A DNA stretch of 30,180 nucleotides from a virus (IMGVR_UViG_3300025168_000419:1-30180), one strand, 5' to 3'; shown: positions 5,440-24,914, counted from the first letter of the stretch. A program made the numbers and translations. The notes: generated by a model not told the origin, from the letters alone.

Positions 5440-6024
5440 TTAATTATTGTTAAAAATTTTATCAAAAACCCTGTCTCTAGTTGTTTTTACTCTATTAGCT
5501 GATATTTTAAAATTTATTTTATTATCAACTATAGCTTCAGGATTATGTTTTACAGGTTCAGGAGCAACAGCAGAAAGTTCTTCTTTTGTTTCTTCAATTA
5601 CTTCTTCCTTCATTTCTTCTTTGTCACCAAGTTTTTCTTCAATCATTGCTTTGATTTCATCAACAGCAACTGCAAATTCTTCTTTAGTAACGTATTTCAT
5701 TTCTTCTTTTTCTTCTTCTTTTAAGTCAGTTTCTTCTTCTTCAACTGCTTCTTCTTCTTCAGCAGCTTCTTTAATACTGTCAATCAAACCTTCTTCTGTA
5801 ACAACTAAAATTTTGCCTTCTTCTAATTCATATTCACCAACAGGTAAAGCAACTTGCTCATCATCTGTTTTTATAAATATAGATTCACCAGCTTCAAAAG
5901 ATTCTGCAACAAGTACAGTACCATTTTCTAAAACCATTTCAGCCATTTCAATTTTATTTTCAGAAAGTTCAACTTTTTCACCAACAATATTTTTTATTTT
6001 GTTTAGTATGTCGTTTGCTTTCAT
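5440..6024 (-). CDS. Putative capsid scaffolding protein
   Basis: This 194-aa protein is highly charged. Residues about 1-90 look like a small folded domain (MVLENGTVLVAESFEAGESIF). Residues 85-155 are almost continuous Glu/Lys-rich coiled-coil sequence, followed by a basic C-terminus (NRVKTTRDRVFDKIF). A long acidic helix with a basic capsid-binding tail is typical of scaffolds that guide procapsid assembly and are then removed. It sits between the protease and capsid genes. A TATAAC-N16-CGTTTATA element ends 17 bases before its ATG. The strong Glu bias creates a long spurious Ser-rich frame on the opposite strand. Confidence 0.6.
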   Translation of the reverse strand: MKANDILNKIKNIVGEKVELSENKIEMAEMVLENGTVLVAESFEAGESIFIKTDDEQVALPVGEYELEEGKILVVTEEGLIDSIKEAAEEEEAVEEEETDLKEEEKEEMKYVTKEEFAVAVDEIKAMIEEKLGDKEEMKEEVIEETKEELSAVAPEPVKHNPEAIVDNKINFKISANRVKTTRDRVFDKIFNNN

Positions 6025-6040
6025 AATTTGAGTATATACC

Positions 6041-6070
6041 TATAAACGTTTGAAAAGCTTTACTGTTATA
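6041..6070 (-). promoter_or_regulatory. Putative phage late promoter/operator, head-operon copy
   Basis: The minus strand reads TATAAC, then 16 bases, then CGTTTATA. It lies in the only sizeable gap of the head module, directly before the scaffold gene (ATG 6024). Copies with the same two boxes and the same 16-bp spacing are at 15767-15796 and 18632-18661. The boxes are also an imperfect inverted repeat of each other, so a dimeric-protein operator is possible. Confidence 0.6.
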
Positions 6071-6089
6071 TTTTTTTGCAACTTTTTTT

Positions 6090-6245
6090 TTAAGATGGTG
6101 TTTTTGTTATGTTTCCAATACCTTGAGCTTGCAAACTTCCATCACAACATTTACTGCTGTATCTTTTACCATCTGGACAAATACAACCGCGCTTACTATT
6201 TTTAGGCGATGTATTACTTGGTGTTTTAAATTTTTTACTTTTCAT
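6090..6245 (-). CDS. 51-aa Cys-motif protein, function unknown
   Basis: ATG 6245 lies one base after the protease stop codon. The basic N-terminus (MKSKKFKTPSNTSPKNSKRG) is followed by a compact Cys cluster: C21-x-C23-PDGKRY-x3-C33-C34-DGSLQAQGIG. Four Cys residues so close together suggest a small zinc- or disulfide-stabilised knuckle. I recall similar CPDG...CCDGSL peptides in flavobacterial phages, but no function. Its place between protease and scaffold hints at a capsid-assembly role. Confidence 0.65.
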   Translation of the reverse strand: MKSKKFKTPSNTSPKNSKRGCICPDGKRYSSKCCDGSLQAQGIGNITKTPS

Positions 6246-6246
6246 A

Positions 6247-7464
6247 TTATTTCTTTTTAACGCAATTAGGTCTTTTTTTTCCGTTTATAGTTTGCCAACC
6301 CTTTTGTTCATATCCATCCCAGCAAGGAGATTTAGTTTTTTTAGCATCAATTATATGTTTTTCGCAAGGCATATACCATTCTTTATCTTCAAACTCGTGT
6401 ATATGAAAACCTTTACAACCTATATTTTTAGCCATCTGTTCTGCTTTTTCTCGCGTGCTATAAGCTAACCTATCATCAATTATTGCAAAGGTTTCATCAA
6501 CTACCATAGAAGAAAGATCAATTTCACCAAGTTCTTTTAACTTACTTCCTGACCATTTTAAACCAGCTTTACCACCCCACAATAAATAACTAATAGTACC
6601 ACACGCTTCTTTATCTCCTTCATCATAATACTCTTGCGCTCTTGATAAATAAGAATACATTCTTTTTAAAGTTGATAAACTAATATTTTCTTTTTGTGCT
6701 AATTGCTGCGCTCTTATTTTACCAACTTGAGTTGCGCATTTATTATTAACTTTTTCATTTAGTTCTATACCTTTTTTAGCATTATTACTAACAGCTTGCG
6801 GGTAATCGTTATAAGTTTCTAATTCTGTTCTTTTACCTGAATTAGTTCTTTTATCTTTTTTAATTAATGCTTTTATATTACTTAGCATAAATTCAGCTTC
6901 TTCTTCTTCAATAGCTGCTAACTCTGCTTTTAAATCTTCATTTCTTACTTGTGCTTTGTCAGCAAAAAACCCTTCAATGCTAAAGCCCTTTACTTTACCA
7001 GTTTTCACATAATCGTTCCATACTTCATCATTTTCAACTTTCATTGAAATCATCCAAGTACCGTTCGGTACATTTAACCCGTACTTCTTAGATTTATCCA
7101 TTTCAGTATCTTCAACAATCCACGATTCAACAACAGTTAAATTGTTAATTTCCATTTCGTGTTCTAAGGTTGCATTGTTCTGCATACTGTTTTGAAAGAA
7201 CAATTCACTTGCTCTCCTTACTGTTTTTTGTGAAAAGTAAACGTAAAAAGTATTATCTCCATTCTTTCTAAATATTGGTTTGTTAGGTATTAAAGCTGCT
7301 CCCATTAACAGTCGCTTTTCATCATCTATTTTTGCCAATTTTATTTCCTGTTCTGATAGTGTTACAAAGTCAGATTCTATTGCTGGCATCTCAACAATGC
7401 TCACAGCTTCGATTCCAGTTAACCCTTCACTATCCTCATCTAGTATTAATTCTATTATATCCAT
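6247..7464 (-). CDS. XkdF-like prohead protease with two C-terminal modules
   Basis: This 405-aa protein starts at ATG 7464. Residues about 1-175 match the XkdF-type phage serine-protease domain: LLMGAALIPNKPIFR, a HEMEINNLTVVESWIVED segment near residue 101, VPNGTWMISMKV, and GKVKGFSIEGFF near 157. It probably processes scaffold and capsid during head maturation. Residues about 205-315 form a helical module (ETYNDYPQAVSNNAKKG, LKRMYSYLSRAQEYYDEGD, ISYLLWGGKAGLKW) known from other Bacteroidota phage proteases. The end, PCWDGYEQKGWQTINGKKRP then NCVKKK, is a short conserved tail. Catalytic His/Ser assignment is my inference. It directly precedes the scaffold and capsid genes. Confidence 0.7.
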   Translation of the reverse strand: MDIIELILDEDSEGLTGIEAVSIVEMPAIESDFVTLSEQEIKLAKIDDEKRLLMGAALIPNKPIFRKNGDNTFYVYFSQKTVRRASELFFQNSMQNNATLEHEMEINNLTVVESWIVEDTEMDKSKKYGLNVPNGTWMISMKVENDEVWNDYVKTGKVKGFSIEGFFADKAQVRNEDLKAELAAIEEEEAEFMLSNIKALIKKDKRTNSGKRTELETYNDYPQAVSNNAKKGIELNEKVNNKCATQVGKIRAQQLAQKENISLSTLKRMYSYLSRAQEYYDEGDKEACGTISYLLWGGKAGLKWSGSKLKELGEIDLSSMVVDETFAIIDDRLAYSTREKAEQMAKNIGCKGFHIHEFEDKEWYMPCEKHIIDAKKTKSPCWDGYEQKGWQTINGKKRPNCVKKK

Positions 7465-7475
7465 TATTTTTTATT

Positions 7476-10112
7476 TTAAAAAGTTGCTTGTTGTATTGTG
7501 TTATTTTCTAATTGTTGTGCGGTTGTTATATCTCCAGATACTACAAATGCTTGTGCTGGTGGTTGACTGCCTAAAGCTCCAGCCACTTGATTAAAACCTG
7601 ATTGACCTACTACGTTAAAATTTGGCGCTTGACTTGCAGATGCTCCACCTCCTCCGCCAGTAGATACAGGGCTTGGGCTTGGGCTTGTACCGCCACCATT
7701 AAATTTTTGTTCTTTAATGCTTTTTACTTGTAACAATCCAGCGGTTACTGCTGCGGCTGCGGCAGCACCACCTAAAACAGGACCAACCACAGGAATACCA
7801 GCAAGCGATTTATAAGAATCAATTGCTGATTGTGCTGTGCTAATTAATGTTTGCGATATTGATACTGCTTTTTGTATTTTAAATGCTTTCCTTTGTTGTT
7901 TCTCACTTTCACCAGCAAATAGTTGCGCTATATTTGATACTGCAGATAATGTGTCCATTACGCCTTGTACCTTTTGTTGATTTAATTGTTTTTCGTTTTC
8001 TTTTTTTTCTGCTGCAAATTTATCATCAATATCTTTTAATTCAGATTGTCTTGCTTCTTCTAGTATCTTAGTGTCTTCACCATAAATAATAGCTTGTTGT
8101 ATTAAATTATCATATTTACTTTTAACAGCATTTTGTTCTTGTTCTATGTTGCTTAATAAACTATTTGCATATTGATCTTCTAAACCTTTTTTTGTTTCTA
8201 AAAACTTTTTTAAATCATCAGCATCTTTTTTCTCTTTTGCTAACCTTTCATTTTCTGCTTTCTTTTCTGCTGCTAATCTTGCAGCTTCTTCTTTCTTTTC
8301 TTTTGCTAATCTTGCATCTTCTGCTTTTTTATCAATTACAGCTTGTCTTTTTTCTTCAAGCTCAATTAATTTATCAGAATAAAATTTATCAATTAATAAT
8401 CTTGCTTCTGCTTTCTTTTTGCTTGAAGCCCTTAAAGCATCTAATTCTTTTAAATCTCTTTCTTTCTGTCTTGCAAGTTTTTCTTCTTCTGTTTTATCAT
8501 CAAAATCTTCTTGTCTTTTTTCTAATTTATTTCTAAATGCTAAAAATTTTGCGTAAGCTTCTTTTCTTTTTTTAATTGCTTCTTCATCTAACTTCGCTTG
8601 TTTATCTGCTGCTACTTTTTCATCTTTTGCAATTTTATCAAGTACAATTTTATTTTCTGATACTTTTATTCTATTAGCAACCCTCTCCATAAAAGTACCT
8701 TCTTCACGTCTTGCTGCTGCATCTTTTTGTAATTTAACAGCTTCTGCTGTTAATTGACTGTAAGTGTTTTTAATATTTTTTACATCTTGATCAAGTTGTT
8801 TTTTATCTATTGCTTTACCAATAAAAGGTATTCCAGATATTATTTTTTTTACTGCTAATAAACCTAATTTAAAATTTGTAAAAGTTAATTTAAAAGCTAC
8901 ACCATAAGTTTTAAAAAAGGCAGTTGATGCTTCAAATTCAGCAGTAAATGCGCCAAAAGTTCTTGACATACTTGTTATTCTACTTATTATAGCTGTTAAC
9001 CCTTGAATAAAAGCCCTTGATATTTGTGTAAAGATTCCATTACCATCTTCTAATGATAATAAAAAACCTTCCCAAGCAGAGCTTAATTTAGTAGTGTCAC
9101 CCTCTAAATTATCAAGTCGAATTTCTGCCATTGCTTTTGCAGCTCCACCAGAGTTTTCTAAAGTTGTTGTTAATTTGTTAATAGCTTCTTCACTATTAGC
9201 TAAATTCAAAAGAGATTTTGCGCCAATTTCACCAACTAATTCTTGAGCAACCCCTAGTTTGTCTGTACTATTATTTACTTTGCTATAAGCTTCTTCAAAG
9301 GTTAACCCCTTTTTATTAAGCTCACTCATTACTTTACTAAGCCCTGTACCTGCTAAACTACCCTTAACACCATTGTCAGCCAAAACACCAAGCAATCCAG
9401 CGGTTTCTTCTATTGATTTACCAGTAGCTCTTGCAATAGGAGCAGCCATCTTTAAAGATTCTGTTAACAAGCCAAAATCTAAAGAAGAAGAACTTGTACT
9501 TTTAGCTAATACATCAACAACCCTTTGCGTATCGCTTGCTTGTAAACCAAAAGAATTAACAACAGAACCAGCTAGCGTTGCAGCTTCAGCCAAACCTACT
9601 TCCAAAGATGCAGCTAAATCAAGAGTTGCTTCTGTTGCAGCTAATATTTCAGGTGTTGTTTTACCAAGTTTGGCATATTCTGTTTGTAGTTGCGCAACTT
9701 CTACTGCTGTAAATTGAGTTGATGAACCAAGCTTTTTTGCTGACTCAGATAGCGCCTCCATTTCTTCATTTGAAGCTCCAGAAACAGCTCTTAATGTAGA
9801 TAATTGTTTAGCAAACTCAGAACCTTTTTTAGTAGCAGATATAAAAAGAGTTACTAAAGAACCAGCAGCAACAACTAATGCTCCAATACCTGTTGATATT
9901 AAAGCAACTTTTAATGCCTTTAAACCGCCTATAACCCCTTGTATAGATTTAGGCATAAAACCTAAAGTATTATTTAAACCATCAAAAGATTTATTTGCTG
10001 TCTTGCCAGTTTTTGCTACTTGCTTATCAGTTTTTTCAAGGTTTTTATTTATCTTATTTATAGCAGGAGTTGCAGAATCTTTAACCTGTATTTCTATAAT
10101 TTTAGTTTCCAT
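7476..10112 (-). CDS. Tail tape measure protein (TP901 family)
   Basis: This 878-aa protein sets tail length and is ejected with DNA. It has an N-terminal coiled coil and a strong membrane segment at about 64-95 (LKALKVALISTGIGALVVAA). The TP901 core spans about 95-350, with SGASNEEMEALSESAKKLG, FTAVEVAQLQTEYAKLGKT, ATEATLDLAASLEVGL and LGVLADNGVKGSLAGTGLSK. A very long Lys/Glu/Ala coiled coil follows at about 460-720, then a second hydrophobic region (GIPVVGPVLGGAAAAAAVTA). A Gly/Ser/Pro linker lies near the C-terminus. No peptidase or lytic domain is visible. If about 1.5 angstrom of tail per residue holds, the tail is roughly 130 nm, which points to a siphophage. Confidence 0.9.
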   Translation of the reverse strand: METKIIEIQVKDSATPAINKINKNLEKTDKQVAKTGKTANKSFDGLNNTLGFMPKSIQGVIGGLKALKVALISTGIGALVVAAGSLVTLFISATKKGSEFAKQLSTLRAVSGASNEEMEALSESAKKLGSSTQFTAVEVAQLQTEYAKLGKTTPEILAATEATLDLAASLEVGLAEAATLAGSVVNSFGLQASDTQRVVDVLAKSTSSSSLDFGLLTESLKMAAPIARATGKSIEETAGLLGVLADNGVKGSLAGTGLSKVMSELNKKGLTFEEAYSKVNNSTDKLGVAQELVGEIGAKSLLNLANSEEAINKLTTTLENSGGAAKAMAEIRLDNLEGDTTKLSSAWEGFLLSLEDGNGIFTQISRAFIQGLTAIISRITSMSRTFGAFTAEFEASTAFFKTYGVAFKLTFTNFKLGLLAVKKIISGIPFIGKAIDKKQLDQDVKNIKNTYSQLTAEAVKLQKDAAARREEGTFMERVANRIKVSENKIVLDKIAKDEKVAADKQAKLDEEAIKKRKEAYAKFLAFRNKLEKRQEDFDDKTEEEKLARQKERDLKELDALRASSKKKAEARLLIDKFYSDKLIELEEKRQAVIDKKAEDARLAKEKKEEAARLAAEKKAENERLAKEKKDADDLKKFLETKKGLEDQYANSLLSNIEQEQNAVKSKYDNLIQQAIIYGEDTKILEEARQSELKDIDDKFAAEKKENEKQLNQQKVQGVMDTLSAVSNIAQLFAGESEKQQRKAFKIQKAVSISQTLISTAQSAIDSYKSLAGIPVVGPVLGGAAAAAAVTAGLLQVKSIKEQKFNGGGTSPSPSPVSTGGGGGASASQAPNFNVVGQSGFNQVAGALGSQPPAQAFVVSGDITTAQQLENNTIQQATF

Positions 10113-10245
10113 ACTTCATTTTAATTTGTTGAACACCCTCTTTAAATGTCATCGGTACTTTATTAATTCCTAATGCGATATTTATATGTTTATCATATAA
10201 TTTATTTTCTTTGCAAAATTCTAATGCTTCTAATATTGTTTTCAT
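10102..10245 (-). CDS. 47-aa protein between baseplate and tape-measure genes
   Basis: Two adjacent ATG codons (10248 and 10245) follow each other; the first overlaps the upstream stop as ATGATGA. The reading frame ends inside the tape-measure start, an 11-base overlap, so all three genes are coupled. The peptide (MKTILEALEFCKENKLYDKH...) looks helical with a short basic end. I do not recognise it. A tail-assembly chaperone fragment is conceivable by position only. Confidence 0.5.
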   Translation of the reverse strand: MKTILEALEFCKENKLYDKHINIALGINKVPMTFKEGVQQIKMKYGN

Positions 10246-12686
10246 CATGTAGGTTCGTTTAATAATTCAAATGATGTTTCTCCACTTTGTAATTTAGTAG
10301 TCATTTTATTAATTGTATAAGCTCTTGTTCCAACAATAATTAAATCATCTAATGTTAAATTCAATAAAACTTTTAATGGTAGTATTGCTGAAAATTTAAA
10401 TATTCTTGTTCTTTTATTAAATACTCTTGTGATATAATTTTGATAATATAATTGAAATAAACTATTTGTATTACCGCCATAATCAGTAAGTGTATATGTA
10501 TTTATTTCGCTACCAAAATTTAAACTATATGCAGGAGCAGTTGTGCTTGTTCCTAATTCATTGTTCATACTTGGTATCCAATAATCTTGCAAAGTGTAAT
10601 TTGTTCCAACTGGACATAAAGCACCATAAGTTTCTGGTCTTGTACTATCTAAAAAATTTATCCAAGAATCAGCAGATACATTTTCTTGGTATATTCCATA
10701 AAATAATAATGGTTGACCTATACTTGGTTTTAATTCAGTATCTAAAAAACTACCAATTTGAACAGCTGTAAATGCACCGCTTGTTATGTCTTGCAATCTT
10801 TCAAACAACATATGCTCAAAAGGTAATTTAATTTGATAAATGCTTTTTTTACTTGCATCACTTAAATAATTTAATTCACCATATTTTTGATTATTAGCAT
10901 TAAAAAATGTTTCTGCTAAAATGCTTTTTGGTGCTGCGTATTCAAAATCAACTTCACTAAACGGAATTGTTTCACCAACTGTATGTTCATCAGTTTTAAC
11001 AAATTCAGTTATATTAAAAGTATCTCCACCAGCATAAAAACTATCTAAAGTTTTAACAACTATTTCACCATTAAAATTTGTAAAAGCAGTTAAATTAAAT
11101 TGTCTAAATAAACCATTTAAAAAATCTTTAACTTTTAATTTTGGCATCTGTTCTGTCATTACAACATATTTATCTTGAGGTTCTAAAACAGCAGAACTAC
11201 TTGTAAAAGTTGCTGTATTATTATAAGTTGTTGTTGTGCCATCATTAGTTACAAAACTTACTTTTCTATTAATAATGAATTTTGCTTGAAACTGTATAGA
11301 AGATTCAGAGCTTAATCTCCCTACCCATTGAATACCATTAAAAATATCATAAGCAAAAAGCACATCATTATCTAAACCATTTGCAGTACCAATTTCTAAC
11401 GTAACAGAACTTGTTCCTGAATTGTTTTGACTAATTGCAAAAGATTCCCAATTATTAGCGCGTACAATTTCTAAATCATATTCAACACCAGTATATGCGC
11501 CAGCAGGCACAACTTCAAAAGTAATTGTTGTTTCATCTTCTGTTACAGTAACGCTACTATCAATATATTTTTTCCATAAGAATACACCAGTATTTAAAGT
11601 AAAATAACCATACAGGTTTGCTGTATTTGTTAGCTCAGTACAATTACCAGTACAAGTATAAGTATCGCTATTACCAACCCAAGTACCAGCACTAATTAAT
11701 TTTCCTTTTTCTCTATGTAACCACATAAACAAATTATTCATAACAGCTGAATCTAAAAACTCACCTGTTTTAAATGTTATGTTATATTGTTGCTCAATAG
11801 CTTTTATTATATGTTTTATTAATATAGCTGGTTTCAAATCTTCAGGAAGCACACCTCTTTGGTTAAGCTTAAAACCTGTACTGCATATGTTTAATCCTGT
11901 TGTATCATATATAATATAATTTTGACCATTACTCATAATGTCAGAACTCAAGGTGACTGCAGTATTGCTATCTATTGCTGTAACTGCTGCTATTGAATTA
12001 GTAGTTGTATTTTTAACAACGTCACCAACAATAACTACATTTGTAAAGTTTTCTGAAGTGTCAACAAGTTTATCATTTGCTGAAGAAGTAGCAGTTCCAG
12101 ATAATTTAATATTGCTTGATGTATTAAAAACATAGCTTTGTGAATGAGCTATTAAAGGATATATTACAGCATCATTATAAGCAACAGAATCTATTGTGAA
12201 GTTTAAACCATTTTCAAGGCCATCTTTTACATTTGTTAAATTACCGCTATGATTAAAATTATTTAACCAAACCAAATCAGATAATTGGTCTTCATTAATA
12301 AGGTTTTTAAAACTAACTGTATTACCAAAGAATGTTACTTTATACATTGATGGTTCATTGTGTTTCATTACAACTTCATTCAATTGTATTTTGCCAAACC
12401 TAAAATGTAAGTGATTTAATTCTATTCTTGATTGACAAAATATATTAGCATCAAAACCATCAATATCTGGATTGTACCAATGTTTAAAAATCTTGTTATT
12501 TGTTTTGCTTGCTGGTAAATTAAAAGTTCTTGAATAGTCAGTAAATAATTTATCTATATCACTTACATCTTGTATGACCTGAGTTAAAGAAATAAGCTCT
12601 GCTTCCATTAAATCAACTCTAACAAAATCTTGCGTGTCAGATGATGTTCTTAACTGCGGTTGTATATATAGAATTAATTGCTGCAT
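10245..12686 (-). CDS. Large tail/baseplate structural protein
   Basis: This 813-aa protein starts at ATG 12686, sharing TAATG with the upstream stop. The N-terminal 140 residues resemble a conserved domain of Bacteroidota phage tail proteins (DFVRVDLMEAELISLTQVIQ, LFTDYSRTFNLPASKTNNKI, FRFGKIQLNEV). The middle, about 190-500, is Thr/Asn/Val-rich beta sequence suggesting carbohydrate-binding or Ig-like modules. The C-terminal part (LPLKVLLNLTLDDLIIVGTR...) looks like a compact hub domain. Position before the tape measure and after a smaller distal-tail candidate suggests a hub or tail-tip protein. No enzymatic motif is evident; function is inferred. Confidence 0.55.
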   Translation of the reverse strand: MQQLILYIQPQLRTSSDTQDFVRVDLMEAELISLTQVIQDVSDIDKLFTDYSRTFNLPASKTNNKIFKHWYNPDIDGFDANIFCQSRIELNHLHFRFGKIQLNEVVMKHNEPSMYKVTFFGNTVSFKNLINEDQLSDLVWLNNFNHSGNLTNVKDGLENGLNFTIDSVAYNDAVIYPLIAHSQSYVFNTSSNIKLSGTATSSANDKLVDTSENFTNVVIVGDVVKNTTTNSIAAVTAIDSNTAVTLSSDIMSNGQNYIIYDTTGLNICSTGFKLNQRGVLPEDLKPAILIKHIIKAIEQQYNITFKTGEFLDSAVMNNLFMWLHREKGKLISAGTWVGNSDTYTCTGNCTELTNTANLYGYFTLNTGVFLWKKYIDSSVTVTEDETTITFEVVPAGAYTGVEYDLEIVRANNWESFAISQNNSGTSSVTLEIGTANGLDNDVLFAYDIFNGIQWVGRLSSESSIQFQAKFIINRKVSFVTNDGTTTTYNNTATFTSSSAVLEPQDKYVVMTEQMPKLKVKDFLNGLFRQFNLTAFTNFNGEIVVKTLDSFYAGGDTFNITEFVKTDEHTVGETIPFSEVDFEYAAPKSILAETFFNANNQKYGELNYLSDASKKSIYQIKLPFEHMLFERLQDITSGAFTAVQIGSFLDTELKPSIGQPLLFYGIYQENVSADSWINFLDSTRPETYGALCPVGTNYTLQDYWIPSMNNELGTSTTAPAYSLNFGSEINTYTLTDYGGNTNSLFQLYYQNYITRVFNKRTRIFKFSAILPLKVLLNLTLDDLIIVGTRAYTINKMTTKLQSGETSFELLNEPT

Positions 12687-13831
12687 TATCTAATATTATT
12701 TACTAAACTAAATGACTTTTCAAAATTCATTGTGTAATTAATTAACCTATCATTTAAACCTGTTTTATAAGTAAATGAACTTTCTTTTAAATTAACTGGA
12801 TAAATAACATTATTTGAATCTGTTAACCATACATACTCACTAACCATTAATTCTTCAAATTGTTCATTCATTAACTCACTAACAAAACCTGTATTTAAAT
12901 TTATGCTTTCAGTTCCGTTTGTGTTAAATGTTTTTTTAGAATGTGCTGTTGTAGAATATGAATTATAAGTTAAAGATTCTTGACACGCTTCACCAGCTTC
13001 TTCTGGCGGGTCTAGCTGTACGCTTCTTGCGCTAAATATACTTGCATTAAAATTCTCTCTTTTTGTTTCTAAGCTTTCTGTTGACTTCTTAAAAAAGAAT
13101 ATATCCTGCATTGCCCCCCATCTATTTAAAAAAGTTATTTTATTTACTGGGTATTTACATTCTTCAGTTGGTGCTAATGTAATGGTAGTAGTGCTGCCAC
13201 TATCATAAGTTATTAAAGCATTATCTAATAATGTTGTACTTGTAAATTGCGAATACTGTATTTTTTGATTTTGGTTGCCGTTATCTGAAAAAGTATCTGT
13301 TTCTCTTACTCCTGCACCTGAACGCCACTGAACAGAAGTTACTCTTTCAACATTTACTGGCAATGTTGCTGTGCCATTTCTATCATACTGTAAATAATTA
13401 CCGCTAATCATAGCAATAGGTTCTGTTGTATAATTAACACCCTCTTTAAATTTGTTAAAACCTTCTTGCGCTAAATAAGTATTTGATGTTGATGAACCAA
13501 TAATTGTTCCTGTGCTTACTCTTGCAGATGTTTCAACAGTTACCCAGATTGATTGCCTAGCAGATGAGGCAGCGTGATTACCAGTAAATATTTGTTCTAT
13601 ATGGTCATTTACTATTTCACTTATATCTAAAGTAATAGAACCTTCGCTTCCTAATGGTTTTTTTTGTAATGAATAAGTTGCTCTTAAGTCATCACATACT
13701 TCTGTTGAATTACTTAAACCACCAAACACAGTTATATTAATTTGAAAATAACTTAGTATTGTTAAGCCGCTACCCGTTACTTGCGGGGTTCTTATGAAAA
13801 ATGGGCTTCTTGTTCTAATTATTGTACTCAT
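12686..13831 (-). CDS. Distal tail structural protein, function not recognised
   Basis: This 381-aa beta-rich protein starts at ATG 13831 with an ATGA overlap to the gp10-like gene. It begins MSTIIRTRSPFFIRTPQVTG and contains hydrophobic/Thr-alternating stretches throughout, plus repeated aromatic pairs near the C-terminus (TYKTGLNDRLINYTMNFEKS). The two ends read like a phage tail-tip or distal tail protein. It forms a translationally coupled chain with the 159-aa and 813-aa genes, supporting a joint role in the tail tip. No signal or catalytic motif is visible. Confidence 0.5.
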   Translation of the reverse strand: MSTIIRTRSPFFIRTPQVTGSGLTILSYFQINITVFGGLSNSTEVCDDLRATYSLQKKPLGSEGSITLDISEIVNDHIEQIFTGNHAASSARQSIWVTVETSARVSTGTIIGSSTSNTYLAQEGFNKFKEGVNYTTEPIAMISGNYLQYDRNGTATLPVNVERVTSVQWRSGAGVRETDTFSDNGNQNQKIQYSQFTSTTLLDNALITYDSGSTTTITLAPTEECKYPVNKITFLNRWGAMQDIFFFKKSTESLETKRENFNASIFSARSVQLDPPEEAGEACQESLTYNSYSTTAHSKKTFNTNGTESINLNTGFVSELMNEQFEELMVSEYVWLTDSNNVIYPVNLKESSFTYKTGLNDRLINYTMNFEKSFSLVNNIR

Positions 13832-14307
13832 TCTATTTTTAATTTGTCATTTAAAAAACCTTCAACTATTTCATCACCATATAAATCTAAGCCACGTTCA
13901 AAAGGTTTTGTAAAAAATAATGTTGCTTTAATTCCTTTTTTATAAATACTTCTTGCTATTAAAAAATTTAAAGATTGTCTACTGATAAACCTACCTTTTT
14001 TATCTCTTGGTGCTATTCCTTTTTTGACTGTCCATTTATCAAATGCTTTAGATGGCGGCTGTTTATTAGTATATTTAAAAGGGCTTGCAGAGCTTTCAGG
14101 ATATGTTGACTTTGCACCCTTTACTCCTTTATCAATAAATGGTCCGTAATCTTCACTAGTAAAAGAAATTTTATCTCCTTTAACAGAATACTCTAAACTA
14201 TTATACAAAGCTTTAGAAGCATTATTTTTCTTTTTAGTCAAATTACTTCTTGACTGTTGAATAACATACTTTGCGTATTTCTCTAATGCTTTTTTAAATT
14301 CACTCAT
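13828..14307 (-). CDS. HK97 gp10-like tail completion/neck protein
   Basis: 159 aa. ATG 14307 shares TAATG with the upstream stop and is preferred over a TTG two codons earlier. It has an N-terminal helix (ALEKYAKYVIQQSRSNLTKK) followed by NASKALYNSLEYSV, then DYGPFIDKGVKGAKSTYPES and SPFKYTNKQPPSKAFDKWTV. The pattern continues through LNFLIARSIYKKGIKATLFF to a final TKPFERGL. This helix-plus-beta plan is typical of the gp10 family joining tail tube and head connector. It sits directly after the terminator-like gene, as in many siphophages. Confidence 0.65.
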   Translation of the reverse strand: MSEFKKALEKYAKYVIQQSRSNLTKKKNNASKALYNSLEYSVKGDKISFTSEDYGPFIDKGVKGAKSTYPESSASPFKYTNKQPPSKAFDKWTVKKGIAPRDKKGRFISRQSLNFLIARSIYKKGIKATLFFTKPFERGLDLYGDEIVEGFLNDKLKIE

Positions 14308-14762
14308 TAGCAATAAGTCATTTCATCTTTAGTGCCGCAATCAAAAGTAACCGCCCAGCCAGCAAGCATATTGTCAAAACGCTCAGTGAACGGTTCACAA
14401 CTTGCAGGATTAATCAATTCAAATTTATCTCTATATAAATCACTCTTTTGCAATACTCGCATAACTCTTGTTGCTAATGCTAACTGAGTGTTTAATATAT
14501 CTTGCCTGTTGTCATTGCCTCTATATAAATCTGTAACTTGTTCATTGCTCACATCTACTAAATCCATAAAGAAAATAGTAATATTAAATGTTACATAGTT
14601 ATTATTAATTGTGCTATTATTAATCATAACGTGAGCTAATGGAAATAAGCTTTGCTTTTTTAAATCAATATCAGCAATATCACCAAATGTTATTTCATTA
14701 TTAAATGGTTCTGCTGTGACAACTTCTTTTATTTTATCTATTATATTGTAAAAACTGTTCAT
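14307..14762 (-). CDS. Putative tail terminator protein
   Basis: This 151-aa protein starts at ATG 14762 (ATGA with the upstream gene). It begins with an amphipathic helix (MNSFYNIIDKIKEVVTAEPF), then FGDIADIDLKKQSLFPLAHV and a beta strand VTFNITIFFMDLVDV, and ends with WAVTFDCG. Alpha-beta plan, length and adjacency to a gp10-like gene match gpU/gp17-type tail terminators that cap the tail tube. Sequence similarity to any named family cannot be established by eye. Confidence 0.5.
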   Translation of the reverse strand: MNSFYNIIDKIKEVVTAEPFNNEITFGDIADIDLKKQSLFPLAHVMINNSTINNNYVTFNITIFFMDLVDVSNEQVTDLYRGNDNRQDILNTQLALATRVMRVLQKSDLYRDKFELINPASCEPFTERFDNMLAGWAVTFDCGTKDEMTYC

Positions 14763-15025
14763 ACTATTTTTATATATCTTGGTGTGTGATTACCTAAATC
14801 TTGTTCTATAAATTCATCAAGAGAATCAATAGCATTATCAAAATCTAAACCCTCTCTTTGTATTAAAATATCTAAGCAAACCCAGTAATCATAAATTGCT
14901 TGTATTGGGTTATTTGCTGTAATACCAATAAATGCTTCTTCAAAGCCATCAACTAAAATAATATGGTCGTTCACAAGTAATAAATCCCTTTCAGTTAATT
15001 CTTCTAATATATCTTGCTTTGTCAT
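14759..15025 (-). CDS. Small acidic tail-module protein, function unknown
   Basis: This 88-aa protein starts at ATG 15025 and overlaps both neighbours by four bases (ATGA each side). It is acidic with two hydrophobic patches (DLLLVNDHIILVDGFEEAFIG, AIYDYWVCLDILIQ) and no membrane segment. It is encoded just after the chaperone-like protein and before the terminator-like protein, so a tail-assembly helper is a reasonable guess. I recognise no domain. Confidence 0.6.
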   Translation of the reverse strand: MTKQDILEELTERDLLLVNDHIILVDGFEEAFIGITANNPIQAIYDYWVCLDILIQREGLDFDNAIDSLDEFIEQDLGNHTPRYIKIV

Positions 15026-15090
15026 CTTCTATTGTTTTTTAATATCTGTTGTTCTAATTCATATTTATCTTTTTCAAATGCTAAATGCAT
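15022..15090 (-). CDS. 22-aa mini-ORF, possibly a coupling peptide
   Basis: The ATG at 15090 overlaps the preceding stop as TAATG, and its stop overlaps the next start as ATGA. The peptide is a charged helix (MHLAFEKDKYELEQQ...). Its perfect placement suggests it keeps ribosomes moving between the 223-aa and 88-aa genes. It may be functional only as a translational bridge. Confidence 0.35.
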   Translation of the reverse strand: MHLAFEKDKYELEQQILKNNRR

Positions 15091-15761
15091 TAAGCAGCTG
15101 TGGAGTTTAGATTTGGTAATTTCATTGTATTTGAGAATGTCTCCATTAGTAAGTCCGTAGATAGATTGATACCAGCCCCATTTAGCAGCGAATCCTGCAG
15201 ATGCTGTGGAAGCTCTATCTCCTTTTGTGTTGCTAAATAACTCAGGATAGTTTTCTGTAATTCGTTCCTTAAACTGTAAAAAAAAACAAGCGAACCAAAT
15301 ACAACATCTAATGTAGTTTCTGTCATATCGTATTTATCAGAGCTTTCATAATCTTCTATTAAATACTGATTCTTTTTTTTGTATGTTATTGGTCTAAATA
15401 AAACACCCATTGCTTTGTTCATCATTTCCCAGTCAGCAAGGTATGTATCAAGGTCAACAAATTCACCAAATGAAATATCATCTAGCTTTGGTATAAAACC
15501 AAACTCTTTTTCATTCATTGTAAACCTATCTATAAATTTAGGTTCTTTAGTAAATAGTTTTGATAGCTGCTCACAAATTTTATTTATATCAATTGCTTTA
15601 ATTTGTAACACATTCTTAAGTGGTATATTACAAAATATCTCCACCATCTTTTGTTGTAAAAATGAATCGAGTTCTTTACCATCAGCAATTTTTAACCATT
15701 TCTGGTATTGCTTTAAAGTAACCTCATTAAGTGTTTCTGGTATATTGATTGTTAACTTCAT
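15090..15761 (-). CDS. Tail-assembly-chaperone-like protein, first gene of the tail operon
   Basis: This 223-aa, mainly helical protein starts at ATG 15761. It contains KLTINIPETLNEVTLKQYQK at the start, ISFGEFVDLDTYLADWEMMN near residue 95 and VLFRPITYKKKNQYLIEDYE near 119. A hydrophobic stretch VVFGSLVFFYSL lies near 155. Proteins of this plan are commonly called tail assembly chaperones in Bacteroidota phages. No slippery heptamer suggesting a gpG/gpGT-type frameshift was found at its end. The element TATAAC-N16-CGTTTATA ends five bases before the ATG, so this gene probably opens a late tail transcript. Assignment is by position and loose resemblance. Confidence 0.5.
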   Translation of the reverse strand: MKLTINIPETLNEVTLKQYQKWLKIADGKELDSFLQQKMVEIFCNIPLKNVLQIKAIDINKICEQLSKLFTKEPKFIDRFTMNEKEFGFIPKLDDISFGEFVDLDTYLADWEMMNKAMGVLFRPITYKKKNQYLIEDYESSDKYDMTETTLDVVFGSLVFFYSLRNELQKTILSYLATQKEIELPQHLQDSLLNGAGINLSTDLLMETFSNTMKLPNLNSTAA

Positions 15762-15766
15762 TTATA

Positions 15767-15796
15767 TATAAACGTTTTAATTAGTGAATCGTTATA
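15767..15796 (-). promoter_or_regulatory. Putative phage late promoter/operator, tail-operon copy
   Basis: The minus strand reads TATAAC-N16-CGTTTATA, followed by TATAA and ATG 15761. If CGTTTATA is a -10 box, transcription would begin at or beside the start codon, giving a leaderless or nearly leaderless mRNA; alternatively this is an operator. The CG-extended boxes form the dyad TATAAACG-N15-CGTTATA on the plus strand. The element matches the 18632-18661 copy across most of 35 bases. Confidence 0.6.
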
Positions 15797-15805
15797 TACA
15801 AATAT

Positions 15806-15845
15806 AAAAAAAAGTAGGCAATGCTCTTTTGCAAATACCTACTTT
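15806..15845 (-). terminator. Rho-independent terminator before the tail operon
   Basis: On the minus strand AAAGTAGGTA (15845-15836) pairs with TGCCTACTTT (15820-15811), with an upper TGC/GCA stem and an AAAAGA loop. It runs into eight T. It lies just upstream of the tail promoter-like element and insulates it. A TATATTTG box (15799-15806) abuts it, but lacks a well-spaced -33 partner. Confidence 0.85.
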
Positions 15846-15988
15846 AACCAAAACGCAAATTACATTGGCAATAATTCGCATAATCAAATATAATAAATTT
15901 CTGAGGACTTACGCTAATAAATCGGCTGCCTCTTATATATCTTTTCTTATCTTATCTAAATGCTTAAGGGTGGCTTAAGCGTGGCTAT
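15846..15988 (-). other. Non-coding segment between two terminators; possible small RNA
   Basis: No reading frame of note occupies this stretch. It is bounded by two minus-strand terminators (15989-16017 and 15806-15845) and contains a perfect hairpin at 15962-15980 and a TATATTTG box at 15885-15892. A short transcript ending at the downstream terminator is possible, but no convincing -33 element precedes the box. It could equally be a packaging or regulatory region. Confidence 0.3.
15962..15980. repeat. Perfect inverted repeat GCTTAAG-N5-CTTAAGC
   Basis: Seven-base arms enclose a 5-base GGTGG loop. It follows directly after the downstream AGCCAC copy discussed at the neighbouring terminator, on the minus strand. 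It could be an RNA hairpin or a dyad protein-binding site. Confidence 0.6.
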
Positions 15989-16017
15989 AAAAAAAGCCAC
16001 TTTTTACGGTGGCTCTT
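15989..16017 (-). terminator. Terminator of the 78-aa gene, with alternative pairing
   Basis: On the minus strand AGCCAC (16014-16009) pairs with GTGGCT (16000-15995) around an 8-nt loop, followed by seven T. A second AGCCAC lies downstream (15986-15981), so GTGGCT can pair either way. It ends transcription 20 bases beyond the stop codon at 16037. Confidence 0.85.
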
Positions 16018-16036
16018 AAATTAAGATTTTTATTTT

Positions 16037-16273
16037 TTAATATCCCAAAGCTTTTATCATACCCTCAGCTAAATAATCTAAGTAATGAAAAACATCACCG
16101 TTTGAAAAATCAATCTTTACTAAAGTAGTTTTTATTTGGTTGTGATATTCTTTTGCTTCGGCTATATAATCAATTAACATATTATAAGTTAATCCAAAGT
16201 GACCGTCAATATTTATAGTAGTTTCTAAATCTACTCCTTTTTCAGTTATTAAGTTTTTTAAGTAAGTTTTCAT
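16037..16273 (-). CDS. 78-aa protein in a single-gene transcription unit, function unknown
   Basis: ATG 16273 is chosen over an in-frame ATG at 16324, because the intervening codons coincide with a promoter-like box and an A-rich leader (AACAAAAACCAAAACAAA) like those of other genes here. The protein begins MKTYLKNLITEKGVDLETTI and is mixed alpha/beta, acidic, and without membrane segments or recognised motifs. It has its own promoter-like sequence and its own terminator, between the terminase and tail operons. This isolated arrangement is typical of early host-interaction or 'moron' genes, an inference from context only. Confidence 0.65.
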   Translation of the reverse strand: MKTYLKNLITEKGVDLETTINIDGHFGLTYNMLIDYIAEAKEYHNQIKTTLVKIDFSNGDVFHYLDYLAEGMIKALGY

Positions 16274-16301
16274 TTTGTTTTGGTTTTTGTTAATTACAAT
16301 G

Positions 16302-16332
16302 TAAATATAAGTATAATTATTCAACTACAAAA
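16302..16332 (-). promoter_or_regulatory. Bacteroidota-type promoter of the 78-aa gene
   Basis: On the minus strand TTTTG (16332-16328), 18 bases, then TATATTTA (16309-16302) resembles the Bacteroidota sigma consensus TTTG-N19-TAnnTTTG, with A instead of the last G. The start codon at 16273 lies about 28 bases downstream. The box plus flank, TATATTTACAT, is shared with the region before the gene at 27015. Confidence 0.55.
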
Positions 16333-16383
16333 CTTTTTTACAACTTTTTTTAATTTTTTTTGTTCTACCTCTGTAAATTTTTT

Positions 16384-17595
16384 TTAATAAATGTGATATT
16401 CTCCTAAACTTGGATTCTGTAATTGATAACTAACTGCATACCTCAACGCATCAATAGCGTGATTAAAATTATCTACTGGTGTTTGTGATTTCTTTTCTAA
16501 CCAACAATAGTTATTTAACTCTTTTATTAATTCTGTACTATCTTCAGTTATTACTAAATCATAATCTTGTAATAAACTAATACCAAATGTTATTGAACCT
16601 TGACCTTTGATAGCTGGTACTACATTACAATCTCTGCTTAGTTCTGTTATTAATCTTGGTTCTGCTGAATCACCTACTATTAAATTATCTGCTGCAAACT
16701 TCTTATTTAATTGTAATATCTCGCTTGTAGTTAATTTAGTTTGGTAAAAGCATAGTTGTATATAGATAACTTTATTCTCTTTGTCTATGCTTGTTTTAAC
16801 TAATGTTGAGGGGTCATTACTAAAACCATAATCTTGGCCATAAACAACTTTACCTACTTGTTTAAATTCTCCTATACTCCAATCAGTAAATATAACACCT
16901 TCAGCTTTGTCCAGCCAAGCACCTTCTATTGTATGCTTGTATCTGTTTGGTCGTCTAACCTTCATTGTTTCAATCTGCTTAATATAGCTTTCTGAAAGGT
17001 TATCAATATTATCTAAATATGTTGTGTGAATGTAAGTAGTATCTTCTTTTGTTATATTACTACCAGCAGCAACTCCTCTATCTTCAAACCAACGTTTATA
17101 AATGAAATGTTCTTTAGTTGTTGGGTTAAGAATTAATATAACTCTATTATCTTGTATTTTATTTCTTACAGATAAATCTATTTTATCAAATATATCTTCA
17201 TCATTTAATTCTTCTGCTTCATCCATTACCCAAGTAGTAATACCAGTTAATGATTTAAGATTTGCTGTCTGGTCTCCTGAGCTTGTTTTGATACCCCTAA
17301 ATATTATCTTGCTGCCATTGCCTTTATTTATTATTTCATCTTTAGTTATTTTAAACCTATCGATTAAATTTAATATTTCTAACTTTTCAATAAATTCTGG
17401 AATAATACTAATGCTTGCAGCTCTTAAAGTGAATCGCGTAAATAGTATTGTGTGACCAGCTTGGTAGGTAAGTAATAATAGTATTGAATTAACAGCAAAT
17501 GATTTACCAGAACCACGACCACCAGTCACTATAAAGTATCTAGCAAAGGATTCTTTAAATACTAAATATTTTTTATTGAGATTTAATTCTACCAA
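16384..17595 (-). CDS. terL: Terminase large subunit
   Basis: This 403-aa motor packages DNA into proheads and cuts it. The N-terminal ATPase shows Walker A GGRGSGKS at residues 25-32, Walker B VMDEAEE near 123-129 and a coupling motif LNPTT near 156-160. The C-terminal RNase H-like nuclease shows QDYG (D255), GDSAEP (D309) and HAIDALRY (D382). Length is typical. The only plausible start is TTG 17595, overlapping the small-subunit gene by 23 bases; a stop codon lies immediately upstream in frame and the next Met is far inside. No other capsid gene is adjacent, which is unusual. Confidence 0.92.
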   Translation of the reverse strand: MVELNLNKKYLVFKESFARYFIVTGGRGSGKSFAVNSILLLLTYQAGHTILFTRFTLRAASISIIPEFIEKLEILNLIDRFKITKDEIINKGNGSKIIFRGIKTSSGDQTANLKSLTGITTWVMDEAEELNDEDIFDKIDLSVRNKIQDNRVILILNPTTKEHFIYKRWFEDRGVAAGSNITKEDTTYIHTTYLDNIDNLSESYIKQIETMKVRRPNRYKHTIEGAWLDKAEGVIFTDWSIGEFKQVGKVVYGQDYGFSNDPSTLVKTSIDKENKVIYIQLCFYQTKLTTSEILQLNKKFAADNLIVGDSAEPRLITELSRDCNVVPAIKGQGSITFGISLLQDYDLVITEDSTELIKELNNYCWLEKKSQTPVDNFNHAIDALRYAVSYQLQNPSLGEYHIY

Positions 17596-17914
17596 TTACT
17601 TCTCTAAAATCAAAATTAACTTCTTCTGTAGTGTTTACATCAACAGTATCTTTTAAGTTACCGTAAGCATTATTATATATAGCATTAAAAGCATTCACAT
17701 CACCTTTTTCAATTACTTTATTAATTAAAGCTTCTGCCATTAAATATTCTTTACTTTGCCAAACTGCATCACCAGTATTAGCATCAATTTTCTTAACCAT
17801 TAAATCAAGTATCTCTCTAATGATTGTGCTTCTGTTTCTTGAACCTTTTGGTTTACCTTTAGGATTACCGCTCTGACCTTTAGTCCAGCTTTTTAAGTTT
17901 TGTTCTCTTGACAT
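17573..17914 (-). CDS. terS: Terminase small subunit-like protein (DUF5681)
   Basis: This 113-aa protein starts at ATG 17914. Its N-terminus matches the DUF5681 pattern (WTKGQSGNPKGKPKGSRNRS), a basic motif common in proteins encoded beside terminases. The rest is helical (REILDLMVKKIDANTGDAVW, EALINKVIEKGDVNAFNAIY), suiting an oligomeric DNA-recognition subunit. It overlaps terL and is preceded by an 11-bp tandem repeat that could be its binding site. Small-subunit function is inferred from position, size and the basic motif. Confidence 0.7.
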   Translation of the reverse strand: MSREQNLKSWTKGQSGNPKGKPKGSRNRSTIIREILDLMVKKIDANTGDAVWQSKEYLMAEALINKVIEKGDVNAFNAIYNNAYGNLKDTVDVNTTEEVNFDFREVIGRIKSQ

Positions 17915-17936
17915 TTTTCACTGTATTTTCACTGTA
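17915..17936. repeat. 11-bp tandem direct repeat before terS
   Basis: TTTTCACTGTA occurs twice head to tail and ends at the terS start codon. On the minus strand it reads TACAGTGAAAA twice, then ATG. Tandem short repeats beside terS are often recognition sites for the small subunit (cos/pac type), which is the working inference here. Confidence 0.7.
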
Positions 17937-17964
17937 TTTATTTAAAAACATTATTAGCTTTCTT

Positions 17965-18342
17965 TCAATTGCTTTTATTTTCTCTTTCGTATTCATATTC
18001 ATTATATAATCTTTTCATTGTATCAACTAAACCTTTTACACAAGAACCGCAGCTTGATGTTTCTCTATTTGTCTTAAATACTCTATTGTGAATCTTTAAT
18101 AGTTCTTTTTGTTCTATGTTGTTAACTATGTTTTTATTAATATGAAAGAATCCTTTTAAATATATGTATTCATTTTCAGTTAAGCATTCAGGGTTTTTGT
18201 AAGGAAACATAGAATTTAATTTAGCTTTTCTACTTTCACACCCGCAATCTTTTCCAAGTTTATCAAATATCCAATCAGTAGCTTGTTTTATTCCTGTGGC
18301 TTTTGTTATCTTTTCTACTGTATCACCTAAACCTTTACTCAT
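17965..18342 (-). CDS. Cys-pair protein upstream of terminase, function unknown
   Basis: This 125-aa protein starts at ATG 18342, overlapping the sigma-like gene by eight bases. It has two Cys pairs, CGC near residue 33 (GKDCGCESRK) and CGSC near 98 (SSCGSCVKGL), which could bind a metal together. The centre is helical (LTENEYIYLKGFFHINKNIV). Similar proteins lie just before terminase in other Bacteroidota phages as I remember them, but no function is known to me. It is likely cotranscribed with terS and terL. Confidence 0.6.
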   Translation of the reverse strand: MSKGLGDTVEKITKATGIKQATDWIFDKLGKDCGCESRKAKLNSMFPYKNPECLTENEYIYLKGFFHINKNIVNNIEQKELLKIHNRVFKTNRETSSCGSCVKGLVDTMKRLYNEYEYERENKSN

Positions 18343-18841
18343 TAATCTTTTTTTTTATTTCTTTAATACAATTGTTTATAGTTCGCCACACAACTACGTG
18401 AGATATATTAGTTGCTGCTGATAGTTTTCTAATGCTGTGGAATTTCTTTCTATATAAATTAAATAGCTTTTTATCAAACCAGTAAAATTCATTTACAATT
18501 TCATCAACTACTTTTTCAATATCAATGTAAGGTTCATTATCTGCTTCTATAATGTTTTTTAGTTCTTTATCAATTAATATATCTTTATCATTTCTAATAT
18601 TATCAATAAATAAATTTAGCATCATCTTATATATAAACGCTTTATTTAAAGAATCGTTATACAGAATATCATTAATTTTTACTTTACCATTATTTATTTT
18701 AGTATGTAAAGCAATATAAAAGTCGTGTAATAAATCTTTTGCTGGAACTTTACTGTTGCTGCTTATTTCTTCAGCCATACTTAACCAAACTCTTTCATCT
18801 CTTACTAAAATTTGTAGTATATTATCTACTTCGGAACTCAT
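18335..18841 (-). CDS. Sigma-70-like / helix-turn-helix transcription factor
   Basis: This 168-aa protein starts at ATG 18841 and overlaps its upstream neighbour by 20 bases. The N-terminal half (KDLLHDFYIALHTKI, then NKAFIYKMMLNLFIDNIRND) resembles sigma region 2. The C-terminal half (FNLYRKKFHSIRKLSAATNI, SHVVVWRTINNCIKEIKKKI) has the layout of a region-4 helix-turn-helix. The length fits an ECF-type sigma. It could direct host RNA polymerase to phage late promoters; the TATAAC-N16-CGTTTATA element inside this gene and before the head and tail operons is the natural candidate target. A DNA-binding protein of other function remains possible. Confidence 0.5.
   Translation of the reverse strand: MSSEVDNILQILVRDERVWLSMAEEISSNSKVPAKDLLHDFYIALHTKINNGKVKINDILYNDSLNKAFIYKMMLNLFIDNIRNDKDILIDKELKNIIEADNEPYIDIEKVVDEIVNEFYWFDKKLFNLYRKKFHSIRKLSAATNISHVVVWRTINNCIKEIKKKINE
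18632..18661 (-). promoter_or_regulatory. Putative late promoter/operator inside the sigma-like gene
   Basis: The minus strand has TATAAC-N16-CGTTTATA, embedded in the codons for YNDSLNKAFIYK. It matches the tail-operon copy in both boxes, in spacing and in much of the spacer. A transcript from here would carry the 125-aa gene, terS and terL, so the terminase unit would be expressed together with head and tail units. Coding constraint makes the close match more notable. Confidence 0.5.
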
Positions 18842-19908: not shown

Positions 19909-20762
19909 TGTTTTTGTTTTAATACGTTATTACCACCAATTGTAAAACCTAACCCACCATTATAATCAAAACATAACGGCTTATCTAAAGTTGGTGTTCC
20001 CCCAGTTTCTTTGTCTTTTATTTTTTCTACTCTTACTTGTGTCATCATCCAGCTTTCAGGTGAATTAATAAACCTATGTATCGAAAGAAAAGAATCGCAG
20101 CGATTCGCGAAAACTTGACCTCCCTCAACATCTGATTTTCTTGGTGGTTGTATATAACCAGCATATTCGTGATTTGGTGGATAAACCCTTCTTGCTGCCT
20201 CTGTCATTGGGTGTGTCATTATATATATTGATTTACCTGTTGTGTTGCAAAAATCTCTTATATCATTGCATATTAAATAATTACGTTCATATTGGTTAAC
20301 TCTTCTATCGTGGTTTAAACCTGTAAAGGGGTCAAGAGCAAATGAATCGCAATTACTTTGTTTAAATATCTTTAATAAATCTTTATGGTTATACATTTTT
20401 TTATTACTAACAAACGTAAACCAATCAGAAATTTTATTATTGTATTTATCAATTTTATCTTTACTCAATTCATTTAATTTACATTGTGCATACATTTGTA
20501 TTAAATCTCTTGTTAATTGTCCAGAACTATTTTCACCAGACCAAATACACCATTTAACATTGTGTTTAATACTTAAGCATAAAAAGTACCATAACATAAA
20601 AAAAGTTTTACCTACGTTGTCAAGTCCTACAATTACTGTAAAGCTGCCACGCTTATGAACATACCACTTATCAAACTCGTTACCAATTTCTAAACCACTT
20701 TTAATTTTACCTTCTTTAAAAGCGTATAGGTATTTTAAATTATCTTCTTTATTAACTATCAC
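19905..20762 (-). CDS. RecA/DnaB-like ATPase (replicative helicase or Sak4-type)
   Basis: 285 aa from a GTG start at 20762 (GTGA overlap). Walker A is GLDNVGKT near residues 46-53 and a Walker B-like strand is SFALDPF near 140. A later strand YIMTHP followed by a motif region EGGQVFANRCDSFLSIHR resembles DnaB helicase motif H4/arginine-loop areas. There is no N-terminal DnaB domain, so this is a RecA-core-only protein. It could unwind the phage replication fork with host DnaG, or act in recombination like Sak4. No phage DNA polymerase or primase is visible, so host replication proteins must be used. Confidence 0.7.
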   Translation of the reverse strand: MIVNKEDNLKYLYAFKEGKIKSGLEIGNEFDKWYVHKRGSFTVIVGLDNVGKTFFMLWYFLCLSIKHNVKWCIWSGENSSGQLTRDLIQMYAQCKLNELSKDKIDKYNNKISDWFTFVSNKKMYNHKDLLKIFKQSNCDSFALDPFTGLNHDRRVNQYERNYLICNDIRDFCNTTGKSIYIMTHPMTEAARRVYPPNHEYAGYIQPPRKSDVEGGQVFANRCDSFLSIHRFINSPESWMMTQVRVEKIKDKETGGTPTLDKPLCFDYNGGLGFTIGGNNVLKQKQ

Positions 20763-21139
20763 TTTATAAATGTTGTAGTTAAATAAGGGTCTTTAAATTT
20801 TACACCTTCTTCTTTCTCTTTCTCTTTTACTTTCTCTTCTACTTCTACTTGTTGCTTAGGGGCTTGCTTAGGGGCTTGCTTAGGGGCTTGCTTAGGGGCT
20901 TTACATAGGTTGTCACCTGTTTTTGTTTCATAACCTTTTACTTGGCTATCAATACTATTAGTTTGACTTATATAAGCAAATTTTGCCATACCTTTTAGAT
21001 TAATAGGTTTTACACCTAAAAACTGTCTATTAAGTAATGCTTCAATAAATTGTAATTTGTCTTTATCTTTTTCTAATTCGTTATAAACATCGTAATAACT
21101 TCTAAAAAAATTAAAACCTTTTCGTTTTGTTAGTTTCAT
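20759..21139 (-). CDS. DUF6291-like protein with (APKQ)4 tail
   Basis: This 126-aa protein starts at ATG 21139, coupled by ATGA to the gene upstream and by GTGA to the ATPase downstream. Residues 1-75 (KGFNFFRSYYDVYNELEKDK, then FIEALLNRQFLGVKPINLKG) resemble the DUF6291 domain found near phage replication initiators. Residues about 81-97 are four exact APKQ repeats, followed by a Glu/Lys-rich segment. A helicase-loader or initiation role is plausible by context. The repeat probably forms a flexible linker. Confidence 0.6.
   Translation of the reverse strand: MKLTKRKGFNFFRSYYDVYNELEKDKDKLQFIEALLNRQFLGVKPINLKGMAKFAYISQTNSIDSQVKGYETKTGDNLCKAPKQAPKQAPKQAPKQQVEVEEKVKEKEKEEGVKFKDPYLTTTFIK
20852..20899. 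repeat. Four exact 12-bp tandem repeats (APKQ-coding)
   Basis: The unit TTGCTTAGGGGC is repeated four times without mismatch. On the minus strand it encodes APKQ, in frame, in the linker of the DUF6291-like protein. The lack of silent variation suggests recent slippage expansion, so copy number may vary between related phages. Confidence 0.95.
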
Positions 21140-24858: not shown

Positions 24859-24879
24859 TGTTATTTGTTTTTGTTGTTT
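24856..24879 (-). promoter_or_regulatory. Duplicated A-rich translation leader, copy 2
   Basis: Identical over 24 bases to 24051-24074 and likewise ending in ATG. It supports ATG 24858 as the true start of the DGQHR gene, or shows that the leader was copied between neighbouring genes. Confidence 0.7.
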
Positions 24880-24914
24880 ATAATCTGACATCCATAGCCA
24901 TTCTTTTTTTATCA

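Follow-up and report, generated by a model that had tools for sequence, protein, structure and literature searches.

The virus record IMGVR_UViG_3300025168_000419 (30,180 bases; hereafter the window, meaning the whole stretch analysed) holds nearly all of its genes on the minus strand, and carries three copies of a bipartite DNA element, TATAAC-N16-CGTTTATA. The presence of portal, capsid, scaffold-like, protease, tape measure and terminase genes indicates that the record belongs to a tailed phage. We conclude that the element is very probably a late promoter of the extracytoplasmic function (ECF) type, which would be read by host RNA polymerase together with a phage-encoded ECF-type sigma factor and would serve three late units. 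A phage-specific late promoter used with the phage's own sigma-like protein had been proposed in an earlier note on this sequence, and this model is supported both by the presence of the element before syntenic genes in relatives and by its co-variation with the sigma-like protein.

All three copies are exact in both boxes, have a spacer of exactly 16 bases and lie on the minus (coding) strand (Table 1), as the earlier note had reported. Its gene distances also hold, with copy 1 located 16 bases before the ATG at 6024, copy 2 five bases before the ATG at 15761 and copy 3 within the sigma-like open reading frame (ORF), as does the resemblance between the spacers of copies 2 and 3, which have TATAACGATTC and also the flank CGTTTATATATAA in common. 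A weight matrix built from the sites of the close relatives (class A, see below) gives the three sites scores of 34 to 38 and the runner-up in the window 3.9, ~30 bits lower, bearing out the absence of a fourth copy. Dinucleotide-preserving shuffles of the window, a check that the note had named, yielded no copies in 1000. With three mismatches allowed, 12 sites are found versus 9.1 expected, a count not above chance. A post hoc search for any 6+8-base gapped word with three distant copies returned 17 in the window and ~1 in each shuffle. Because the shuffles too yield three-copy gapped words, copy number alone is only moderate evidence, and chance was judged by conservation in relatives, which at the level of sequence comparison settles that the element is real.

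A terminase search retrieved 80 viral contigs, many of which are fragments, and the class-A site counts are based on loci not fetched by the pattern itself. Relatives with a closely similar sigma-like gene carry the element before the syntenic genes, in the same three places and with the 16-base spacer kept. The tail site is present within one mismatch in all 25 class-A loci, always beginning 34 to 36 bases before the ATG, and the scaffold site is exact in the seven class-A loci (7/7) holding both the sigma gene and the site. For copy 3, which lies inside a coding region, 27 class-A sigma genes were chosen by protein identity only, and the element is exact in every one of them. Among codons keeping their amino acid, the synonymous difference is 0.027 inside this copy versus 0.244 outside. 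Of 157 twelve-codon windows this is the least variable at synonymous sites, with a probability of ~2e-5 when codons are drawn at random, which indicates that the DNA is constrained there beyond the encoded protein. A pattern search of the whole viral collection placed 43 of 103 distinct loci at genes of this family; the remaining loci are most simply chance matches of 14 fixed bases.

Relatives whose sigma-like protein is 23-42% identical lack the window's element, and in most of these distant relatives the corresponding tail and scaffold genes are preceded by two-box elements of another type. These are ATAACACT-N14-ACATTA in clade B, TATAACAA-N14-CATTTATAT in clade C, ATAACACT-N14-ACATTA in clade D (with flanks unlike those of clade B), TATATCA-N15-CGGATAA or CGGATTA in clade E (members seen at the tail site only have the -10-like box CGACTTA or CGAATTA), ACA-N14-TTATTGTA in clade F, GTGGA-N15/16-TATTGTA in clade G and ATAACACT-N13-CGTT in contig L240. 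Class A shows no variation in the -35-like box, and wherever an element can be recognised in another clade such a box is there too. The tail and scaffold elements of one genome resemble each other far more closely than those of different clusters do (permutation p = 5e-5, 14 clusters), and the copies at these two sites are all in the same orientation. In clade F, five genomes carry a further copy ahead of the small terminase gene, and some carry one ahead of the protease gene. Two contigs, L277 and L076, have an additional small ORF ~100 bases ahead of the tail gene, and it is the ATG of this ORF that the element directly precedes, indicating that the element heads a unit rather than one gene or start codon.

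Across the retrieved contigs the element follows the sigma-like protein: where the sigma differs, the element differs. Terminases 86-88% identical to that of the window occur with sigma proteins of 29-36% identity and a different element. L060 and L061 (terminase 82%, sigma 87-90% identical) have the window's element, whereas L042 (terminase 87%, sigma 34% identical) has another, and terminase identity is consequently a poor guide to element type among these sequences. Comparison of L060/L061 with L042-L050 shows that the terminase genes have not shared the history of the sigma/tail block; the sigma types seem to have swapped terminases. At the level of single boxes, region 4 helices ISHVVV, ISHATV and LGHVTV pair with -35-like ATAAC, ISYKVV/ISYKTV with ATATCA, ISSKAV with GTGGA and ISWVSI with TATACA; region 2.3-2.4 pairs with the -10-like box, less sharply than region 4 does with the -35-like box. 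Region 4 and the -35 box are correlated when terminase and tail protein are controlled (partial Mantel r = 0.46, p = 0.001). One pair, L276 and L071, is by itself a natural experiment that separates region 2/-10 from region 4/-35 on sequence grounds: the tail gene is 92% and region 4 90% identical and the -35 box is the same, whereas region 2 is only 53% identical and the -10 box differs (CGGATAA versus CGACTTA).

From its profile matches and predicted fold, the sigma-like protein is an ECF-type factor in which sigma2 and sigma4 are joined by a linker (sigma2-like ~1-84, linker 87-104, sigma4-like ~105-168). The NCBIfam sigma70-ECF model TIGR02937 matches all 27 clade representatives (E 1.2e-5 for the window protein) and phrog_1740, the PHROG RNA polymerase sigma factor, matches 24 of the 27. 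The structural model has a mean predicted local distance difference test (pLDDT) score of 82.6, with helical domains flanking a disordered linker of low confidence. In the PDB, the folds most similar to it belong to ECF sigma factors (sigmaE, SigH, SigW, AlgU, RpoE and CnrH), and the sigma4-like part superimposes on E. coli sigmaE region 4 bound to -35 DNA (2h27) at 1.7 A over 60 columns. Whole-chain template modelling (TM) scores are low (0.3-0.4) because domain orientation differs. An in-frame ATG located 6 or 9 bases after copy 3 is kept in all 27 class-A sigma genes, and a sigma4-only product of 96 amino acids from this codon is possible, with a function that is putative only.

The cultured phages P12024S and P12024L (Nonlabens/Persicivirga, Inhavirus) have a syntenic gene, gp33/gp35, annotated as Sigma-70 region 2, and gp33 of P12024S passes Pfam Sigma70_r2 (25.2 against a cut-off of 24). 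In P12024S, seven AAC-N16/17-CGTTA elements are located at annotated late gene starts, each with the ATG 31-32 bases after the start of AAC; these start codons are at 179, 3031, 5412, 21280, 23961, 25201 and 26802. These phages therefore resemble the window in both the syntenic sigma gene and two-box elements at late gene starts, and differ from it in having more copies, the -10 box CGTTAATA and a terminase ~52% identical. No description of the P12024S/L promoters was found in the open-licence literature searched. We infer that the hosts of the family are Bacteroidota based on P12024S/L (Nonlabens) and on a search of host genomes with the tail gene, which gave matches in two Bacteroidota bins only.

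Relative to the A of the tail ATG (+1), TATAAC spans -35 to -30 and CGTTTATA spans -13 to -6, placing the start codon where the transcription start would be expected. Since this applies to the tail gene and to the seven P12024S elements, leaderless late mRNA is predicted. The earlier note had foreseen an almost leaderless mRNA from the copy at 15767, and the predicted pattern extends to nearly every clade at that gene. The proposed scheme is as follows, with sigma binding, the order of events in infection, the transcription starts and leaderless translation all predicted. The -35-like TATAAC and -10-like CGTTTATA, 16 bases apart, would be recognised by host core polymerase with the phage sigma, which would presumably be made early or mid-infection and would then switch on the late units, with copy 3 serving the terminase unit, copy 2 the tail unit and copy 1 the head unit. 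At the tail gene and the P12024S elements, the first transcribed base would coincide with the ATG or lie only a few bases from it, producing leaderless mRNAs. A bolder extension, which we consider rather unlikely, is that leaderless late mRNAs are made group-wide from the group's own fast-evolving ECF-type sigma, and that copy 3 yields a leaderless transcript with the sigma4 half (96 amino acids) first, serving as sigma feedback or as a ribosome loader for the overlapping terminase genes.

Several observations weigh against a late promoter read by the phage sigma. The window protein scores 25 bits against a TIGR02937 cut-off of 42.9, and has no match to Pfam Sigma70_r2 at the curated cut-off. 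The correlation of region 2 with the -10 box is weak (partial Mantel r = 0.14, p = 0.005, same controls), region 4 correlates with the -10 box too, so that co-variation is not cleanly separable by box, and Mantel permutations fall short of a full phylogenetic model. One of the 14 clusters, L237, has no shared tail/scaffold element, and a search for a third copy close to the terminase found none in clades B, C, D, E and G. The ATG following copy 1 is too far downstream for a leaderless mRNA (predicted leader ~11 bases), and Flavobacterium has few leaderless mRNAs (5.5%; PMC9723704), which form only a small share of the host's mRNAs (PMC9723704, PMC6847099).

The element might instead be an operator, with a dimeric phage repressor or activator on two half-sites two helical turns apart and the late units transcribed from other promoters. 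The earlier note had raised a dimeric site on account of an imperfect dyad, and TATAAC does match the reverse complement of CGTTTATA at 5/6 bases; a TAnnTTTG-like host box just upstream of copy 2, common there in relatives but not universal, speaks for the same explanation. We nevertheless regard it as highly improbable. The dyad is lost in most other clades, the best match dropping to 3-4/6 in all but one of the eight other clade types with the two-box layout intact, all copies at these sites have the same orientation, copies 1 and 3 have no preceding host-type box, and the co-varying helix-turn-helix protein also has a sigma2-like domain.

There is similarly little to be said for a positive-control site, at which the sigma-like protein would be a DNA-bound activator recruiting polymerase with the host sigma rather than a true subunit. 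Phage late activators exist, the window protein scores under family cut-offs, and a 'positive control sigma-like factor' model gives weak matches to 8/27 clade representatives. Against this stand the full sigma2-linker-sigma4 layout with ECF sigma factors as top fold matches, the complete two-box promoter geometry with a start codon at the expected start site, and the lack of a host -7 box at copies 1 and 3. It is also hardly credible that copies 1 and 2 alone are functional and that copy 3 is a coding coincidence (YNDSLNKAFIYK). Copy 3 does lie in the stretch of the gene encoding sigma region 2.3-2.4, whose amino acids are constrained, but the synonymous sites under it are almost invariant, and it shares TATAACGATTC and the flank with copy 2, which is intergenic. 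A promoter used by the phage's own ECF-type sigma is thus the explanation that we prefer for all three copies.

Table 1. Features of the window discussed in the text, with positions counted from its first base
Feature	Position	Strand	Details
Scaffold-like gene, first after copy 1	5440..6024	-	between protease and capsid genes; part of phrog_24921
Copy 1, TATAAC-N16-CGTTTATA, heads head unit	6041..6070	-	exact match; -35-like 6065-6070, -10-like 6041-6048; precedes scaffold-like gene
First gene of tail unit, after copy 2	15090..15761	-	phrog_32199 E 2.7e-16; weak phrog_166 tail protein
Copy 2, TATAAC-N16-CGTTTATA, heads tail unit	15767..15796	-	exact match; -35-like 15791-15796, -10-like 15767-15774; precedes first tail gene
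TATATTTG, perfect fit to Bacteroidota housekeeping -7 box TAnnTTTG	15799..15806	-	two bases before copy 2
Intrinsic terminator-like hairpin with U-tract	15803..15845	-	-15 kcal/mol, z -3.15; directly upstream of copy 2
Terminase large subunit, unit downstream of copy 3	16384..17595	-	PF04466 E 1.1e-35
Probable terminase small subunit (DUF5681), downstream of copy 3	17573..17914	-	PF18932 E 3.7e-13; role suggested by position
First full gene downstream of copy 3	17965..18342	-	start overlaps sigma gene end
Phage-encoded ECF-type sigma factor, 168 amino acids	18335..18841	-	profile and predicted fold
Possible short product, 96 amino acids, sigma4-like half only	18335..18625	-	in-frame ATG 6 bases downstream of copy 3
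Copy 3, TATAAC-N16-CGTTTATA, inside sigma-like gene	18632..18661	-	exact match; -35-like 18656-18661, -10-like 18632-18639; upstream of terminase genes

The hairpin before copy 2 would keep transcription from further upstream out of the tail unit, and TATATTTG is a possible extra host-read promoter, which would make a double promoter (host and phage sigma) at this copy. The family phrog_24921 covers the protease as well as the scaffold-like gene, and in P12024S and a Bacteroidota bin the two proteins are seemingly fused in one gene headed by the element (L196 179-1228, L285 17801). Elsewhere in the window, a PAPS-reductase-like gene with DUF3440 adjoins a ParB_N-like gene (21136-22344 and 22347-23528, minus strand), another ParB/GmrSD-like gene is located at 24076-24915, and TTAGGGGCTTGC occurs as a short tandem repeat (20856-20903) inside the ORF 20759-21139. 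The ends of the record (1-190 and 29991-30180) form a near-identical repeat of ~190 bases with few mismatches. This could mean that the genome is circularly permuted, almost complete and variable between strains, or else that a single structural gene contains a repeated domain. A DNA similarity search of the window against named phages gave no match.

A promoter of this kind would explain late gene control in abundant but poorly studied marine Bacteroidota phages, and provide small, orthogonal pairs of sigma factor and promoter for a phylum in which host promoters are unlike those of E. coli. As sigma and promoter have diverged jointly through approximately ten recognisable types, they provide a natural data set on ECF promoter choice, and as element and sigma change together across related phages the recognition code is directly testable. 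The leaderless prediction is unusual for Flavobacteriia, in which there are few leaderless mRNAs. No prior description of the family's promoters was found in the open-licence literature searched.

Redirection of host polymerase to late genes by a phage sigma is known from SPO1 (gp28/gp33-gp34) and T4 (gp55), although T4 late transcription also needs the sliding clamp, and the sigma families and promoters of both differ from those of the window phage. Bacterial ECF promoters include that of Bacillus sigmaW, TGAAAC-N16-CGTA. In Flavobacterium psychrophilum, the CGT -10 box of motif SM6 marks an ECF regulon (PMC9723704). The likeness to such promoters lies in a -35 with AAC, a -10 with CGT and a spacer of ~16 bases; the ECF-type features (AAC in the -35, spacer ~16-17, CGT in the -10) are seen in the window and P12024S elements, and some clades depart from them (ACATTA, CGGATAA, TATTGTA). 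Bacterial ECF promoters differ in serving host stress and secretion regulons, often under anti-sigma control, whereas those of the window would serve a phage's late genes. An anti-sigma gene was not identified in the window phage. Kuravirus-type phages (phiEco32, 7-11 and SU10) encode ECF-family sigma factors with middle/late promoters (PMC4281155, PMC4331800, PMC7881722), and their phiEco32-type promoters are described as having an extended -10 motif (tAATGTATAtA) and no recognisable -35 element (PMC4281155, PMC5333181). The window family is like the phiEco32 group in having a phage-encoded ECF-family sigma and a conserved low-copy motif before late genes, but departs from the phiEco32 type in having both boxes at fixed spacing, and differs further in its probable Bacteroidota hosts, its mostly leaderless-looking starts and the location of one promoter inside the sigma gene.

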